From Methylophaga sp. (GTDB taxonomy: Bacteria > Pseudomonadota > Gammaproteobacteria > Nitrosococcales > Methylophagaceae), in the NCBI GenBank assembly GCA_030148085.1, contig JASBUF010000033.1:1-64000 (forward strand): DNA of 64,000 nt. The letters are read 5' to 3'. This document shows, piece after piece, positions 5,847-59,388 of the stretch; within the stretch, counting starts at the first letter, position 1; the number at the start of each line of letters is the position of its first letter. Made by a program: the position numbers and the translations under genes. The notes under the pieces are model-generated. The model was not told the DNA's origin and did no database searches. It saw nothing but the letters and a program-made list of their open reading frames with translations.

Positions 5847-8030
5847 CTAAAGCAGATCCACCGGGTCAATATCCATCGACCAGCGAAGTTTTCGAGCCAG
5901 TTTATGGCGACTTATCGCGGCCGTATAGGTATCCAATAAACGATGTAAAGGTTTTCTATCCAGACTACTCAAAAGCAGTTGTGCTCGGAATCGCCCGCCT
6001 TTCTTTTCCATAATCGCAGGGACTGGTCCAAGAACCATCACATCCTGTTGCCCTGCTTGATTCAGCATGCAGGCGACATCCTGCAAAAATTCCAAAGCCA
6101 GACTGCGCTCTTTGGCTTCAGCACGAATCACCGCCCAATTCGATGCGGGTGGCATCGCCAGTTCAATCCGTTCCCGCAACAGACTTTGTGCTGCTTTGGC
6201 ATAACCTTCCTTAATCAGCATTTGCCAGAAGGCATGTTGTGGTTGATCAGTCTGAATCAAGACTTCACCGGCTTTATCACCACGTCCCGCCCTGCCAGTG
6301 ATCTGGGTAATCATCTGCGCCAGGTTTTCTGTGGCCCGGTAATCGGCACTGTAAAGGCCTTGATCGGTATCTAATACACCGACCAGAGTGACATCATGAA
6401 AATCATGGCCTTTGGCCAGCATTTGCGTACCGACCAGAATTTGCGGCTCGCCTTTCTTGATATCAGCAACGATGTCATTAAACGCATTGACCCGTTGTGT
6501 GCTGTCACGATCAACACGGATCACTGGATAGTCAGGGAACAGGGTTTGCAGATGCTGCTCGATTTTTTCAGTGCCTGAGCCGTAACTTTTCAGTTCGGAT
6601 GATTCGCAGTCAGGACATTCTTTGGCGAGGCTGATAATAAACCCGCAGTGATGACAAAACAGGATCTGCCGGTGCTGATGTACCACCATTCGGGCATCAC
6701 AGTGCCGGCATTTAGCCTGCCAGCCACAGTCGTGACACATCAATACGGGTGCAAATCCCCTTCGGTTAATAAACAAAATAACTTGGTTACCTGCATTGAG
6801 GTGACTGTGCATGCGTTTGAGCAGTTGATCACTTAAACCATGATCAGGGTGTGCCCCATTACTGTCGACTAGATGCACATTCGGTAATCGTGCGCCAGCT
6901 GCGCGCTGACTTAAATGCAAGGGTTCAAATCGGTTTTGCTGTACTTGATACAGACTTTCTAAAGACGGTGTAGCGCTACCCATCAAAACAGGAATTCCAC
7001 GTTTTTGTGCTCGTACTAGAGCAATCTGCCTGGCGTGATAACGCAGACCATCCTGTTGTTTATAAGAACTGTCATGTTCTTCATCAATGATGATTAATCC
7101 GGCATCCGGTAACGGTGTAAAGACTGCAGAACGGGTACCAATGATGATTTTTCCAAGCCCTTGTTTGGCTAACAGCCAGCCTTGCTTGCGTTCTCCATCA
7201 GATACTGCGGAGTTGAGAATAACGATGCTGGTATCTAGTCGTTTCTGGAAACGTTCAACGAATTGGCCAGTAAGACCTATTTCCGGAATCAGAATAAGAA
7301 CCTGTTTTCCTTCTTGCAGCATGCGTTCACAGAGCTCGATGTAAACCTCCGTTTTACCACTGCCGGTAATACCGTCGAGTAAAAAGCTGTTGAACTGTGT
7401 TCGTTGTTGCCACACCTGTTCAACGGCATTTTGTTGTTCTTCGTTAAGCTGGAAAGGAAGAGTCAGTTCTGAACGCGTCACAGGCAACTTGGCTTGCAGT
7501 TGTTGTTTGACCAACCCCTGATTTTCCAATGCCTGCAGACTATTGGTAATGGCACCTAAGGAAGCTTTTAACGCTGATTGACTAATGCCATCTGGATAAT
7601 CACTCAAGATATCGAGACAGGCTTGCTGTTTTTTACCCAGTTTTTTCTCTATCGCATTATCGGTTTTGGACCACCAAGCCTCTTGTATTAAGTCGGCCTC
7701 AGAGCCGTTTCTTAATAACTTAGGTAGGGCTGTCTGAAAACATTCCCCAAGAGGATGATGATAGTAGCGACTAACCCAAAGTACCGTTTGCATGATTTCG
7801 TCAGGAATCAGTGGTTGAGTATCGACGATGTCTTCAATGCTTTTCAGTTTACTGATGTTTGTATCGGAATCGACTTCACTCACTCGAATGACAATCGCGA
7901 TACAAAGGCGTCCAGCAAAATTCACTTTTACTCGCATACCCGATTGCCAGAATCCCACGGGTTTATCAGACAGGTAGTCAAAAAGCTGTCTTAAAGGGCT
8001 GGGTACGGCAAGATGAATGATGCTGGTCAT
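5847..8030 (-). CDS. priA: Primosomal protein N' (PriA helicase)
   Basis: 727 aa; Walker A LLDGITGSGKTEVYIE, DEEH box, paired CxxC zinc motifs (CHDCGWQAKCRHCDARM...CHHCG...CPDCES). Confidence 0.97.
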   Translation of the reverse strand: MTSIIHLAVPSPLRQLFDYLSDKPVGFWQSGMRVKVNFAGRLCIAIVIRVSEVDSDTNISKLKSIEDIVDTQPLIPDEIMQTVLWVSRYYHHPLGECFQTALPKLLRNGSEADLIQEAWWSKTDNAIEKKLGKKQQACLDILSDYPDGISQSALKASLGAITNSLQALENQGLVKQQLQAKLPVTRSELTLPFQLNEEQQNAVEQVWQQRTQFNSFLLDGITGSGKTEVYIELCERMLQEGKQVLILIPEIGLTGQFVERFQKRLDTSIVILNSAVSDGERKQGWLLAKQGLGKIIIGTRSAVFTPLPDAGLIIIDEEHDSSYKQQDGLRYHARQIALVRAQKRGIPVLMGSATPSLESLYQVQQNRFEPLHLSQRAAGARLPNVHLVDSNGAHPDHGLSDQLLKRMHSHLNAGNQVILFINRRGFAPVLMCHDCGWQAKCRHCDARMVVHQHRQILFCHHCGFIISLAKECPDCESSELKSYGSGTEKIEQHLQTLFPDYPVIRVDRDSTQRVNAFNDIVADIKKGEPQILVGTQMLAKGHDFHDVTLVGVLDTDQGLYSADYRATENLAQMITQITGRAGRGDKAGEVLIQTDQPQHAFWQMLIKEGYAKAAQSLLRERIELAMPPASNWAVIRAEAKERSLALEFLQDVACMLNQAGQQDVMVLGPVPAIMEKKGGRFRAQLLLSSLDRKPLHRLLDTYTAAISRHKLARKLRWSMDIDPVDLL

Positions 8031-8183
8031 GAATAAATAACAGAAAGAAAGAGAGATATTTTTTTAGTGATGTTAATGTTTTATGCCTGTGAATTGTTGG
8101 ATAGATTCGATTTGGTATTCAAATTCAGCATCTTATCGTGATCCGTGCTTGTTGATAACTTTTATGCTGCGGGACGGATTTGC

Positions 8184-8226
8184 TGTGGATAACTAAGCGA
8201 CTTATCCACAGGAAAAGTTATCCACA
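8184..8226. promoter_or_regulatory. Cluster of three perfect DnaA boxes (candidate oriC or DnaA-regulated region)
   Basis: TGTGGATAA at 8184-8192, TTATCCACA at 8202-8210 and TTATCCACA at 8218-8226 in the priA-folA intergenic region. Confidence 0.7.
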
Positions 8227-8318
8227 GCTTGTGATCGATCTTATTGGGTATTTATACAGGACTTATTGCTGAGCTTGATAAACGGTAGACTGGCAGCACT
8301 TTTTGAGTGGAAGGCAAA

Positions 8319-8813
8319 ATGAAGTTAGCGTTGATTGTGGCCATGGATGAACAAGGGGTGATTGGAAAAGATAATGATCTGCCGTGGCGTTTATCGGCAG
8401 ATTTACAGTATTTCCGCCGAGTGACGATGGGTAAACCAATCATTATGGGGCGCAATACCCATGAGTCGATCGGTCGTCCTTTACTAGGAAGAAGAAATAT
8501 TGTGATTACCCGGCAGTCGGACTTTCAGGCTGATGGCTGTGAGGTGGTGTTTTCGATTGACCAGGCCTTAGCCGTATGTGAAGGCGAAGCAGAAGCCATG
8601 ATCATGGGCGGAGCGTCACTGTATGAGCAAACACTGCCCTTGGTTGATTCTTTGTATTTGACACGTGTCCACGCCAAGGTTGAAGGCGATACCTGGTTTC
8701 CCGACTGGTCAGAAAAAGACTGGCTTCTAGTCAGCCGGGAAGATCATCAGGCCGATGACAAAAACGAGTTTGATTACAGTTTTCTGCAATACCAGCGGAT
8801 TAAGACGTCATAA
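8319..8813 (+). CDS. folA: Dihydrofolate reductase
   Basis: MKLALIVAMDEQGVIGKDNDLPWRLSADLQYFRRVTMGKPIIMGRNTHESIG is typical DHFR. Confidence 0.97.
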   Translation: MKLALIVAMDEQGVIGKDNDLPWRLSADLQYFRRVTMGKPIIMGRNTHESIGRPLLGRRNIVITRQSDFQADGCEVVFSIDQALAVCEGEAEAMIMGGASLYEQTLPLVDSLYLTRVHAKVEGDTWFPDWSEKDWLLVSREDHQADDKNEFDYSFLQYQRIKTS

Positions 8814-19944: not shown

Positions 19945-21027
19945 GTGCTGGCCAGCATAACTGTTCAACAATTTAGAAATATTCTTCAGGCGGAACTGAG
20001 TCCAGCACCGGCCATAAATTTAATTCTGGGCGAAAATGGTTCTGGAAAAACCAGCCTGCTCGAAGCCATCTTCTTGCTGGCGATGGGTCGATCTTTTCGC
20101 TCCCGTTTTCTCAAAGCCTTAGTCAATAATCAGCACGAACGACTGACAGTGTTCGCTCGCTCATCTGATCAAACCCCTATCGGTCTGCAATACGATTTAT
20201 CTTCGGGTCTGCAAATCCGGCTGAATAATGCGCCGTTAAAAAAGCTATCTGATTTAGCCCTACACCTCCCCGTTCAATTCATTCCTGCCAACTGCCACCA
20301 GTTCTTTGAATTAGGTCCAAAGTTCCGTCGCAGGATGGTCGATTGGGGTGTGTTTCACGTGGAACATCACTTCAATTTTCACTGGCAGTCTTATAAAAAA
20401 TCTCTGCAGCAACGCAATGCGGCAATTAAACAGCGCAAGTCAAAAATTGAGATTTCTTTGTGGGATAAGTATCTCGTTGAGCATGGCAACTCGATAACGC
20501 AGATGCGACAGCGTTACCTGCAGCGACTCGTCGAGTATTTCAAACCGCTTTTTAATGAGCTCTGTCCGGAACTTACAGCTACAGAATTTACCTTGCGCTA
20601 TCTGCAGGGCTGGAATAAAGAAAGTGAGTTTGCACAGTATCTCGCTGATAACTTAGAGCGTGATCTGGCTCTCGGCTATACCCGATCCGGTGCACATGCT
20701 GCGGATTGGTCTTTACGTGTCGACGGAGCTGATCCGTATGAAATGCTCTCCCGTGGTCAACAAAAACTGTTTTTTCTTGCATTGAGTATGGCGCAGATTC
20801 AGCTTCTGGCTGATACAAAACAGCTCACGAACAGCATCTTAATGATTGATGATCTGAGTTCAGAGCTCGATTGGCAGCATCAGCAAACTGTCATTTCTAC
20901 CCTTCGTACCCTTCCCGTTCAGAGCTTTATAAGTACAACGAATGATGAATTGAAATCACTTTTAAGTAGTGAAAATGAAAAGTTGTTTCACGTGAAACAT
21001 GGCGAGATTTCGGCAGAGTTGAGTTGA
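19945..21027 (+). CDS. recF: DNA replication and repair protein RecF (GTG start)
   Basis: LILGENGSGKTSLLEAIFLLAMGRSFRS; upstream of gyrB. Confidence 0.95.
   Translation: MLASITVQQFRNILQAELSPAPAINLILGENGSGKTSLLEAIFLLAMGRSFRSRFLKALVNNQHERLTVFARSSDQTPIGLQYDLSSGLQIRLNNAPLKKLSDLALHLPVQFIPANCHQFFELGPKFRRRMVDWGVFHVEHHFNFHWQSYKKSLQQRNAAIKQRKSKIEISLWDKYLVEHGNSITQMRQRYLQRLVEYFKPLFNELCPELTATEFTLRYLQGWNKESEFAQYLADNLERDLALGYTRSGAHAADWSLRVDGADPYEMLSRGQQKLFFLALSMAQIQLLADTKQLTNSILMIDDLSSELDWQHQQTVISTLRTLPVQSFISTTNDELKSLLSSENEKLFHVKHGEISAELS
20351..20366. other. Near-consensus parS-like site (15/16)
   Basis: TGTTTCACGTGGAACA versus TGTTTCACGTGAAACA. Confidence 0.65.
20984..20999. other. Consensus parS site (16/16)
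   Basis: TGTTTCACGTGAAACA read directly near the 3' end of recF. Confidence 0.85.
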
Positions 21028-21055: not shown

Positions 21056-23512
<2,457 letters not shown>

Positions 23513-49374: not shown

Positions 49375-51207
49375 ATGAAAGATCAACAATCACGCGTTAA
49401 GGAATTAATCGCCTTAGGTAAAGAACGTGGTTACCTCACATACGGTGAGATTAACGATCACCTGCCAGAAGATTTAGTAGATGCTGATCAGGTTGAAGAT
49501 ATTGTCAGCATGTTCAGCGACCTCGGTATCATGGTCCACGAAGATGGCATGGATACTGACGAGATGGAACGCCTTGCTGAAGCCGTCTCATCCAATGATG
49601 AAGTCTCAGATGAAGAAGCTGCAGCTGTATTAGCCAGCTCAGATGGCGAGTTTGGTCGCACAACCGATCCGGTCCGCATGTACATGCGTGAAATGGGCTC
49701 AGTCGAACTGTTGACCCGTGAAGGCGAAATTGTTATCGCGAAACGCATTGAAGCTGGTCTGCGTGAAAGCCTGCAGATGCTGTCGACTTACCCTGCGTGT
49801 ATCTCTTCATTTCTTGCGATGTTTGAACTGGTTGATGCCGGTGAAATGCGCCTCAATGAAGTGATTAAAGGCTTTGTCTCAGCGGAAGAAATCATGGAAA
49901 CGCAGGATGACGATGATTCTGACTCCCTTGATGATGACTCTGATGTTGATAGTGATGACGACGATGACGATGACGTCAGTAATGTCAGTGATGACGATGA
50001 CTCTGGTGAGATTGACCCAGAGGAAGCTCGTAGCCGCATTGAAGCATTAAAAGAAGCCTACACCAACTACGTACAAAGCAAAGGTGATGCTGCTGATGCC
50101 GCACGTGAGCAAGCCAGTGCTTTGTTTATGGAATTCAAGCTGACGCCGAAAACGTTGGGGCTATTGAATGACCTGATGACTGACACCATCAACGAAATCC
50201 GTAAGCAGGAAAAAACCATTATGGATATCGTTGTTGAGCAGGCGCGAATGAACCGCCGTGACTTCATCGACTCGTTCCAAGGTAATGAAAGCAACACCAA
50301 TTGGGCGGATAAACATATCCGAGCCAAAAAGCACTATTCATCGACCATTAAAAAGTATCACGATGAGATTCTGGCTGCGCAGAGCAAACTAGCGGAAATC
50401 GCTGACGAACGCGCTATTTCGATTTCTGAAATCAAAGAAATCGCCCGTCAGATGTCCATTGCCGAAGCGAAAGCGCGTCGTGCCAAAAAAGAAATGGTCG
50501 AAGCTAACCTGCGTCTGGTTATCTCGATTGCAAAGAAATACACCAACCGCGGTCTGCAGTTCCTCGACCTGATCCAGGAAGGTAACATCGGTCTGATGAA
50601 AGCGGTGGATAAATTCGAATACCAACGTGGTTATAAATTCTCGACTTACGCTACCTGGTGGATTCGTCAGGCGATCACCCGTTCTATCGCAGATCAAGCT
50701 CGTACTATCCGTATCCCGGTTCATATGATTGAAACCATCAATAAGCTGAACCGTGTTGCGCGTCAGATGTTGCAGGAAATGGGCCGTGAGCCAACACCGG
50801 ATGAACTGGCAGAACGTGTTGATATGCCAGAAGACAAAGTGCGTAAAGTACTGAAGATTTCCAAAGAACCGATTTCAATGGAAACCCCGATCGGTGATGA
50901 TGAAGATTCACATCTGGGTGATTTTGTTGAAGACGTCAATGTTATTTCACCGTCAGATTCTGCCATTATCGAAGGTCTGCGTGAAGCGACCACCAACGTG
51001 CTGGATGGCCTGACCGAGAGAGAAGCCAAGGTACTGCGTATGCGTTTCGGTATCGATATGAATACCGATCACACATTGGAAGAAGTCGGCAAACAGTTTG
51101 ATGTCACCCGTGAGCGGATTCGTCAGATTGAAGCCAAGGCTCTGCGTAAGCTGCGTCACCCTTCACGCTCAGACCAACTGAGAAGCTTCCTCGACTCAGA
51201 AAGTTAA
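49375..51207 (+). CDS. rpoD: RNA polymerase primary sigma factor RpoD
   Basis: [66 protein letters not shown]. Confidence 0.98.
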
Positions 51208-51488: not shown

Positions 51489-52667
51489 TTGAAAATAGAA
51501 AATATTGAGATTAGTGGTGTGGGAGGCATTGATAACATTGATATTAGCTTTTCACCCGGGTTCAATTTTATTTGTGGACCGAACGGTGTTGGTAAAACAA
51601 CAATTCTAGAGTGTGTCGCTCATAGTTTTACTTCAAGTTCTACGGAAATTTTAAAAAGAAACGTCAGGCATGAAAGAGGCTCTTTCTCGTCGGTTATCGA
51701 GAATGATGGCTCACGAGAAACTATAAATAGTAACGTGCTTGATTTTGAGCCAGGGTCTCAAACAAGGATAATGGGTAGACACCAACTATCAAGAAAGCTT
51801 CTATCCCTAAAGGTAACGAGAACATTTAGTTATCAAGCTTTGAGTGCTGTTGCGCGTGATACAGATAAAGCTGATGGCGTGATTCACAATGAGGTGAAAA
51901 ACGGCGTAAATATACATGAAGTAAAGAACTGGTTCGTCAACAGGTTCCTATACTCAGGTCATGTTGGCGCGCTCAGTGATATTCAGATAGATAATTTAAA
52001 TTTGGCTAAAGAGTGCTTTTCAGTATTGAATCCAGACTTTAGATTCAGAACAGTCAGTGCAGCATCTAATGAAATCATGATTGACACCCCGAGTGGGGAG
52101 ATATACTACGAGTACTTATCTTCAGGATTTAAATCATCTTTATCAATAATCTTTGGGATCATTAAGGATATTGAATACAGGTTCAAAGACCCCGGATTGA
52201 GAGCCAGAGATTTTGATGGAATTATTTTAATTGATGAGCTGGAATTACATCTTCATCCAGAGTGGCAGGCTAGGATATCGGTAATATTAAAAGAGATATT
52301 TCCTTATGCCCAGTTCATAACAACTACTCATAGCCCTCACGTATTGCAAAATGCTGAACCAATGGAAATTATCGCGCTTGGTTTTGATAATGACAGGGTT
52401 GTAAGAAGAGATCTCACTCAATGTGAGTATGGCTTCAAAGGTTGGACTGTGGAGGAAGTGCTGGAGGATGTTATGGGGATGGAAGATACCAGAACACCGA
52501 TTTATCAGGAATACATGAAAGTATTTGAAGATGCCGTTGCTGATGATGACGTAGAAAAGGCCAGCGATGCATATGAGCAACTTGATAAGTTGCTTCACCC
52601 GGAAAATCACCTCAGGAAGCTCTTAAAATTCGATATGGCAACCCTTAGCAAGGGGGAGAGTGAATGA
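51489..52667 (+). CDS. AAA/ABC-type ATPase, Septu PtuA-like (TTG start)
   Basis: Walker A CGPNGVGKTTILE; Walker B/D-loop IILIDELELHLHPEWQ; THSPHVL; ATGA overlap with the downstream HNH gene. Confidence 0.75.
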   Translation: MKIENIEISGVGGIDNIDISFSPGFNFICGPNGVGKTTILECVAHSFTSSSTEILKRNVRHERGSFSSVIENDGSRETINSNVLDFEPGSQTRIMGRHQLSRKLLSLKVTRTFSYQALSAVARDTDKADGVIHNEVKNGVNIHEVKNWFVNRFLYSGHVGALSDIQIDNLNLAKECFSVLNPDFRFRTVSAASNEIMIDTPSGEIYYEYLSSGFKSSLSIIFGIIKDIEYRFKDPGLRARDFDGIILIDELELHLHPEWQARISVILKEIFPYAQFITTTHSPHVLQNAEPMEIIALGFDNDRVVRRDLTQCEYGFKGWTVEEVLEDVMGMEDTRTPIYQEYMKVFEDAVADDDVEKASDAYEQLDKLLHPENHLRKLLKFDMATLSKGESE

Positions 52668-53398
52668 TCAAATTGCAAAGGAGTGCAAAGCCAGGTTTCT
52701 TAGATCATGCAAAAGTAATTGAACTAACGGATAAGTTCATCCAAACACAAGACTCTGTATGGAATCATCAGGAAATAAAAAGGAACCTACTAAGCTCATC
52801 ATATGAGAAATGTGCATATTGTGAGTGTTTATTGACTGAAGAAAGCAAATATATGGAAGTCGAACACTTCCGGGATAAAAAACATAACCCGCTGCTGGTA
52901 GTTATTTGGAACAATCTGTTGCCAGCATGTAAGCGCTGTAATGGTAAGAAAGGCACGCATGATGTTGATGTTGAGCCGATAGTAAACCCATATGATGATG
53001 ATCCCAGCGACCATCTTTATTCAAAAAATTATCGACTTAAGCCCAAAACAACAGAAGGTAGCAATACTATTGACTCTCTCTCCCTAAACGATAGGGAACG
53101 TTTAGTAATGGCAAGGTTTGATATTGGAGAGAAAGTTCAAGAATTAGTCGGCACGGCGTCAGAACGTCTAGAGTCCTTCATTAATCAGCCCAGCATGATT
53201 CGAAGGAATAAACTAGTCGATATTGTTGAAAATCTTCTGAAAGAAAGCCAAAGAAGGTCAGAATATGCAGCTTGCACTGCATCTGTTTTGATTGGTGATA
53301 ATGAATTTCAAAATATTATTTCAGAAATGAAAAGGCTAAGACTCTGGGATTCAAGCCTGGACGCCCTATATAATGAGGCAGACTCTATAAAACTCTAA
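52664..53398 (+). CDS. HNH endonuclease, Septu PtuB/retron-HNH-like
   Basis: KCAYCECLL...MEVEHFRDK...WNNLLPACKRCNGKKGTHDVDVEPIVNPYDDDP. Confidence 0.78.
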   Translation: MIKLQRSAKPGFLDHAKVIELTDKFIQTQDSVWNHQEIKRNLLSSSYEKCAYCECLLTEESKYMEVEHFRDKKHNPLLVVIWNNLLPACKRCNGKKGTHDVDVEPIVNPYDDDPSDHLYSKNYRLKPKTTEGSNTIDSLSLNDRERLVMARFDIGEKVQELVGTASERLESFINQPSMIRRNKLVDIVENLLKESQRRSEYAACTASVLIGDNEFQNIISEMKRLRLWDSSLDALYNEADSIKL

Positions 53399-58185: not shown

Positions 58186-59388
58186 TTATGTTGCTGATTG
58201 ACTTGCGTTAAATGAATGCAGCAAAAAGTCGGTGATTATTTGCATGGGCTCTTTTAAGCGAGAGACATCACTAATAATATATCCAGCTGTAACGTCTGCT
58301 TTATCCCGGTGATTAAGTAGTCTTTTTAGTGCGTAAGCCGGGATATCTCTGCTCTCAGCAATCGTTATAAATGTCCGTCTCAAATCGTGGAGCCTGAAAT
58401 CCACGCCTGATATTTCAGAGACTTTCAGGATGGCTTTTCTGGGATCCTGTATGTAGCCGGTTCTGGACTCACTCGGAAACACAAAGTGACCTTGGCGAGA
58501 TTCATGGCGCCTGATCAGCATGGTTTCAATAAAGTCAGAGAAGGGCAACGTATGACTTTCCCCATTCTTGGTGTCCGGGATGGTAAAAGTCTGTTCCTCA
58601 AAGTTCACATACTCCCAGCGTAGTTGAGCTGCTTCTGTTCTTCTTAACCCAGTAAACAGTAAGAAGTGTAAATAGTCTCTGGTGGTTTCCTGGTTAAGTT
58701 GAAGTGTGGCTTCATACCAGTCTTTGAGCTGGTGGGGTTTAATCAGGTTTTTACGTCTCTCCACTTTATACCAGGCTCTTGTCTGGCTGAGCCTTTCAAC
58801 AGGGTTAACGAGAATGATGGGATTGCCCTTAGCATCCTCATATTTACTCATAGCGTGATTAATGAGGGCTCTGAGCACACGCATGGAGTTGTTAGCTCTA
58901 GCTTCACTGCGTTTGCCAAGCTCACGATGTTTTCTTTCCACCATGTCTTTCGTGATTTCAGCAATTGGCTTTTTAAGCCAGTCCTCAAAAGCGGTGTTCA
59001 TGATTCGGTTGTAATCATGGATGGTAGAGTCTTTGAGATCTTTGCGTGTGGCGAGATAGTCCCGATACACTTCCATTAAAGAAACCGAGCGAGCATAGCG
59101 TTCCCGTTTTTCAGCAATGGGATCGCCACCGGTTGCGACCTTGCCTAAGATCTTCATGGCTTCAGTCCGGGCCTGTTCTACCGTCAGGTTGCCGTAGCGT
59201 CCCAGCGTGATCCTTTTAACACGGCCATTAACCCGTTTTTCAACGATGAAAGATTTAGCACCACCACTGGTGACTCTAAGAGCAAAGCCAGGGATAGCGG
59301 TATCGCGATAGAAGTCCTGTGTAGACACTTGACCGGATTTTGGTGTCGGAATTGGCGCCTTGTCTACAAATGATTTGGTGATCCTCAT
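58186..59388 (-). CDS. Tyrosine recombinase/integrase (P4-type, DUF4102 N-terminus)
   Basis: DFYRDTAIPGFALRVTSGGAKSFIVEKRVNGRVKRITLGRYGNLTVEQAR; catalytic TGLRRTEAAQLRW, HDLRRTFIT, LNHRDKADVTAGYI. Confidence 0.94.
   Translation of the reverse strand: MRITKSFVDKAPIPTPKSGQVSTQDFYRDTAIPGFALRVTSGGAKSFIVEKRVNGRVKRITLGRYGNLTVEQARTEAMKILGKVATGGDPIAEKRERYARSVSLMEVYRDYLATRKDLKDSTIHDYNRIMNTAFEDWLKKPIAEITKDMVERKHRELGKRSEARANNSMRVLRALINHAMSKYEDAKGNPIILVNPVERLSQTRAWYKVERRKNLIKPHQLKDWYEATLQLNQETTRDYLHFLLFTGLRRTEAAQLRWEYVNFEEQTFTIPDTKNGESHTLPFSDFIETMLIRRHESRQGHFVFPSESRTGYIQDPRKAILKVSEISGVDFRLHDLRRTFITIAESRDIPAYALKRLLNHRDKADVTAGYIISDVSRLKEPMQIITDFLLHSFNASQSAT

Follow-up and report, generated by a model that had tools for sequence, protein, structure and literature searches.

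Two 16-bp sequences inside recF of this Methylophaga genome are predicted, with high confidence, to be chromosomal parS sites of a ParABS system. They lie in a 64-kb stretch of DNA, called the window here. An earlier note, made from the letters of the window, had read them as a centromere-like ParB loading zone, and this reading was supported by the presence of ParA and ParB genes in the genome, retention of the motif, and a nearby predicted oriC. The sequence and uniqueness of the sites, the gene content, the conservation pattern, and the position near the skew minimum were all observed directly.

The recF sites and the ParABS genes

The features at recF were as follows:

19945 to 21027, plus strand: recF, host of both sites (Pfam SMC_N/RecF; TIGR00611, E 2.8e-98)
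20351 to 20366: predicted parS site 1, TGTTTCACGTGGAACA, core of the RecF peptide V-F-H-V-E-H, at about codon 137
20984 to 20999: predicted parS site 2, the perfect palindrome TGTTTCACGTGAAACA, core of the RecF C-terminal peptide L-F-H-V-K-H-G
21092 to 23512, plus strand: gyrB, directly 3' of recF (Pfam)

Both sites match the 16-bp palindrome TGTTNCACGTGNAACA. Site 1 agrees with the perfect palindrome at 15/16 positions and is a full match to the degenerate consensus. The two 16-mers were found within the recF frame where the earlier note had put them, and its spacing of 633 bp was right. dnaN was absent upstream of recF in the window. Among named organisms, the best recF hits were Methylophaga species, which puts the genome in or close to Methylophaga.

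A genome-wide motif search, which the earlier note had proposed, returned only the recF pair even when one mismatch to TGTTNCACGTGNAACA was allowed, and a reversed-pattern control on the whole genome gave no matches at that threshold. The genome is a 2.46-Mb draft in 95 contigs, 90% complete, and therefore further parS sites may be missing. In the window, three matches were found at up to three mismatches, compared to 0.31 expected from shuffles. The earlier note had also argued that such 16-mers were extremely unlikely by chance. The raw 16-mer probability was too strong, since the RecF peptides FHVEH and FHVKH half-specify the motif. Given the peptides, the probability of both sites in one genome was roughly 3e-4 (our own estimate, from background codon frequencies). 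A chance origin was ruled out by the genome-wide uniqueness of the sites together with comparative codon data, and the decisive support for these predicted parS sites is comparative.

The note had further tied its reading to the existence of ParABS genes, and both ParA and ParB were found, encoded beside gidAB on contig C63 of the same genome:

5255 to 6115 of locus L053: parB
6132 to 6911 of locus L053: parA

The gene order, atp genes-parB-parA-rsmG (gidB)-mnmG (gidA), is canonical; the gene names other than parB were read from translations. ParB was similar to solved Spo0J/ParB proteins along the N-terminal and HTH domains. No further parS-like site within two mismatches was detected in the par region. 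By homology with Pseudomonas aeruginosa, we infer that ParB would bind and load at both recF sites and spread along recF-gyrB as a clamp that depends on CTP, and that ParA would carry out segregation by pulling the nearby origin apart after replication.

Elsewhere in the window, a Septu-type defence pair, PtuA-PtuB, was seen at 51489-53398 (PADLOC E 6e-160 and 1e-94). It is in low-GC DNA, with rpoD (49375-51207) on one side and a phage-type integrase (58186-59388) on the other.

Codon constraint in Methylophagaceae recF

Since the predicted parS sites lie inside the coding sequence, the same bases would be both centromere and codons for F-H-V-E/K-H. The RecF proteins of 29 relatives, at about 53-76% protein identity, had FHVE at site 1 in every case and FHV[E/K] at site 2. 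Across 32 Methylophagaceae recF genes, His at the sites was CAC in 64/64 cases, compared to 34% elsewhere in the gene, Val was GTG in 64/64, compared to 29% elsewhere, and Glu/Lys was GAA or AAA in 64/64. These counts come from related sequences and are not independent; the rest of recF, with the same tree, was the control. The bases that did vary, the third base of Phe and the first base of E/K, are exactly the two N positions of TGTTNCACGTGNAACA. In a synonymous-conservation scan of 359 codon windows, the two sites ranked top, with values of 0.48 and 0.45 (mean 0.053, SD 0.080). Sister species therefore kept the motif despite synonymous freedom, a point that had been named beforehand as one on which the reading would depend.

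Conservation at the DNA level, independent of coding, was found in this codon test and also where recF had been lost. In one relative from the same taxonomic order, G036, recF is gone, and between dnaN and gyrB there is an intergenic stretch that holds a perfect parS, TGTTTCACGTGAAACA. The putative centromere of G036 has outlived its host gene. G036 (L058) is a single-contig genome with no DnaA match. Its contig starts just before dnaN and, thus, dnaA may have gone missing where the contig ends.

Distribution across Gammaproteobacteria

Across 58 genomes, the window's own and relatives, 54 of 60 perfect consensus sites, which came from 43 genomes, were within recF by hand count. In a class sample of 84 genomes from 83 families, a perfect site was present in 53. 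Of the canonical sites listed in this sample, 63/75 were at the two recF positions, which mostly fell about 400-424 and 1012-1045 bases from the start of the model match. The two conserved recF codon positions of embedded parS of the P. aeruginosa type are occupied in the window as well.

ParB was present in 81/84 genomes of the class sample, and the three ParB-less genomes were all without a perfect site. One of these, G086, has a clear recF in which codons and peptide are gone at both positions. In ParB-positive genomes that had no perfect site, 15 of the 17 readable recF genes carried a site with one mismatch at one position or at both; G084 and G101 had neither site. Several ParB-positive relatives combined a single perfect site with one one-mismatch site. 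Enterobacterales RecF proteins had FHN[E/Q] at site 1, those that could be read at site 2 had FTVEK there, and Enterobacteriaceae have been reported to be without par genes (PMC3909081). Outside the class, none of 21 sampled recF genes from the same phylum contained a parS-like sequence within two mismatches. The site-1 peptide FHV[E/K] was likewise absent in 21/21 of these RecF proteins, so that the peptide is no general requirement of RecF. The predicted double duty of the recF bases is old and conserved across Gammaproteobacteria.

Variants of the sites were also seen. Site 1 was mostly lost from Vibrionaceae and Shewanella recF (L075-L132). Where the peptide remains at site 2 in these genes, the sequence is TGTTTCATGTGGAACA-like, one base off consensus, with CAT in 21/21 and GTG in 21/21; GTG/GAA is still fixed despite the off-consensus CAT. 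G063 (L235) carried the same change, TGTTCCACATGGAACA, in both recF sites, with V to M in both peptides, which suggests joint change of the two sites, perhaps along with ParB specificity. Pairs of perfect parS sites 26-31 bp apart were present outside recF in G065 (C5:173309-173353) and G107 (C412:10269-10310), and at the recF end in G109 (C11:16599-16645). A parS-like site of the TGTTTCACGTGCAACA type was found in gltB of G006 (L064:316-331), and a site of this type 12-19 kb from parB was also found in G026, G028, and G033. As a third site type in the window's genome, TGTTTCACGTGCAACA was set aside because the gltB of this genome is without it.

A predicted origin near recF

The sites are close to the predicted oriC, which is 12 kb upstream of recF. 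The features of this region were as follows:

5847 to 8030, minus strand: priA, left flank of the predicted oriC (Pfam)
8050 to 8260, plus strand: predicted oriC region, AT-rich part (...ATATTTTTTTAGTGATGTTAATG...), priA-folA intergenic (family alignment; GC-skew minimum of relatives)
8184 to 8226, plus strand: module of three perfect TTATCCACA DnaA boxes in the predicted oriC, conserved in relatives
8184 to 8192 (minus), 8202 to 8210 (plus), and 8218 to 8226 (plus): the DnaA boxes of the module, all perfect
8307 to 8813, plus strand: folA (dihydrofolate reductase), right flank of the predicted oriC (Pfam DHFR_1)

The origin candidate that had been proposed at 8.2 kb coincides with this conserved module, which in two single-contig relatives was within about 15 kb of the skew minimum. 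The AT-rich left part was also conserved in an alignment across Methylophagaceae. The module was found in 31 genomes, all among the 35 Methylophagaceae searched, usually as one copy. Where contigs permitted measuring, it was mostly 11.7-18.8 kb upstream of recF (distances by subtraction), which upholds the proposed distance of about 12 kb between origin and recF sites; the exception was G030, with about 125 kb. Two oriC-like DnaA-box modules were seen in three genomes: on both sides of priA in G030 (L204) and G032 (L205), and about 320 bp apart in G029 (L200).

In G006, where the cumulative GC skew reached its minimum at 310-320 kb, the positions were 305.7 kb for the module, 319.6 kb for recF, 239 kb for parB, and 160 kb for dnaA. 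In G022, with a minimum near 1426 kb, they were 1438.7, 1425.9, 1510, and 1656 kb, respectively. Over the six genomes measured, dnaA was 120-230 kb from recF and 103-217 kb from the module, and parB was 64-86 kb and 48-75 kb away, respectively; the predicted oriC and the recF sites stayed together. The distance to dnaA had first suggested that recF had moved off from the origin. This was ruled out: both the GC skew and the DnaA-box module point to an origin next to recF, and it is dnaA-dnaN that lies elsewhere. We predict that the Methylophagaceae oriC is between priA and folA, not beside dnaA or gidA.

Alternative explanations

One could suppose that the function of RecF keeps FHV[E/K]H and that ordinary codon preference mimics parS, with no role for the DNA itself. 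The peptide alone does set about half of the motif, the C-terminal FHV is invariant in 15 diverse gammaproteobacterial RecF proteins, and Vibrio and Shewanella keep an FHVEH-like C-terminal peptide whose CAT codon departs from the consensus. However, the codons of the 32 Methylophagaceae genes are frozen far beyond the gene background only at the bases that parS specifies, and G036 kept the 16-mer with no recF around it. A protein-only constraint also fits poorly with the loss of the peptide in ParB-less lineages and with the 21 RecF genes outside the class, which have neither the site-1 peptide nor a parS-like sequence. We regard this explanation as very unlikely.

That ParB at recF mainly regulates the recF-gyrB operon, not segregation, is highly improbable. 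Excess ParB in P. aeruginosa lowers expression around parS1-4, gyrB included, but genes adjoining the intragenic parS1 and parS2 are not raised in parB-null/parS-null P. aeruginosa (PMC5521831). In addition, the genome has no canonical sites besides the recF pair, and without these two segregation would be left with no canonical parS. The same scarcity, with the genome free of other sites at up to one mismatch and the par region at up to two, makes it barely conceivable that the recF sites are decaying relics of a centromere now located elsewhere. Such decay is known in Enterobacterales and at site 1 of Vibrio and Shewanella, but the Methylophagaceae codons for His, Val, and Glu/Lys show none.

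For the chromosomal parS sites predicted here, the following history seems reasonably probable. The recF pair would be the ancestral centromere of Gammaproteobacteria, and the need for this DNA would have written FHV[E/K] into RecF twice, with the peptide decaying when ParB is lost. Rearrangements in Methylophagaceae would then have parted dnaA-dnaN and gid-parAB from the origin, while oriC and the parS sites in recF were mostly kept within 12-19 kb, so that the selected linkage would be that of oriC and parS.

Discussion

recF-embedded parS is a kind of site already known from P. aeruginosa, in which parS1 and parS2 are within recF near oriC (PMC3909081, PMC5521831). Their sequences, TGTTCCACGTGGAACC and TGTTCCACGTGGAACA (PMC4368675), are compatible with the two codon positions in other Pseudomonas recF genes. 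Of the sites parS1-4 to which ParB binds in P. aeruginosa, two are in recF, and a single oriC-proximal site suffices for segregation (PMC4368675, PMC5098823, PMC5521831). P. aeruginosa has two more high-affinity sites (parS3 and parS4) and six weaker ones, whereas the recF pair is the whole detectable set here. The layout differs as well: distances from oriC in P. aeruginosa are about 4 kb to the recF sites and about 7 kb to parAB, whereas the Methylophaga relatives have 12-19 kb between recF and the predicted oriC, with parAB and dnaA tens to hundreds of kb off. Chromosomal parS sites of the Bacillus/Caulobacter type belong to the same consensus family and are origin-proximal, as here (PMC5815017 for Caulobacter; otherwise general knowledge), but they are not bound to two fixed recF codon positions.

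In the literature searched, which did not reach one key comparative parS survey, parS in recF came up for P. aeruginosa alone, and we found no statement of class-wide parS in recF, or of the repeated FHV[E/K] of RecF as a consequence of parS. What appears to be new is the breadth across Gammaproteobacteria, the likely shaping of the RecF peptide by centromere DNA, and oriC staying with parS rather than with dnaA or parAB.

Across a whole bacterial class, one stretch of DNA thus provides a clear case of double use, as predicted centromere and as coding sequence for a protein, and the pattern predicts which RecF residues exist for the sake of the DNA. The Methylophagaceae layout, in which dnaA and parAB are far off while parS and the predicted oriC are unparted, offers natural conditions for testing the claim, made from engineered P. 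aeruginosa strains, that parS must stay near oriC (PMC5098823). It also carries a warning: an origin placed at dnaA would err by about 100-220 kb in Methylophagaceae.
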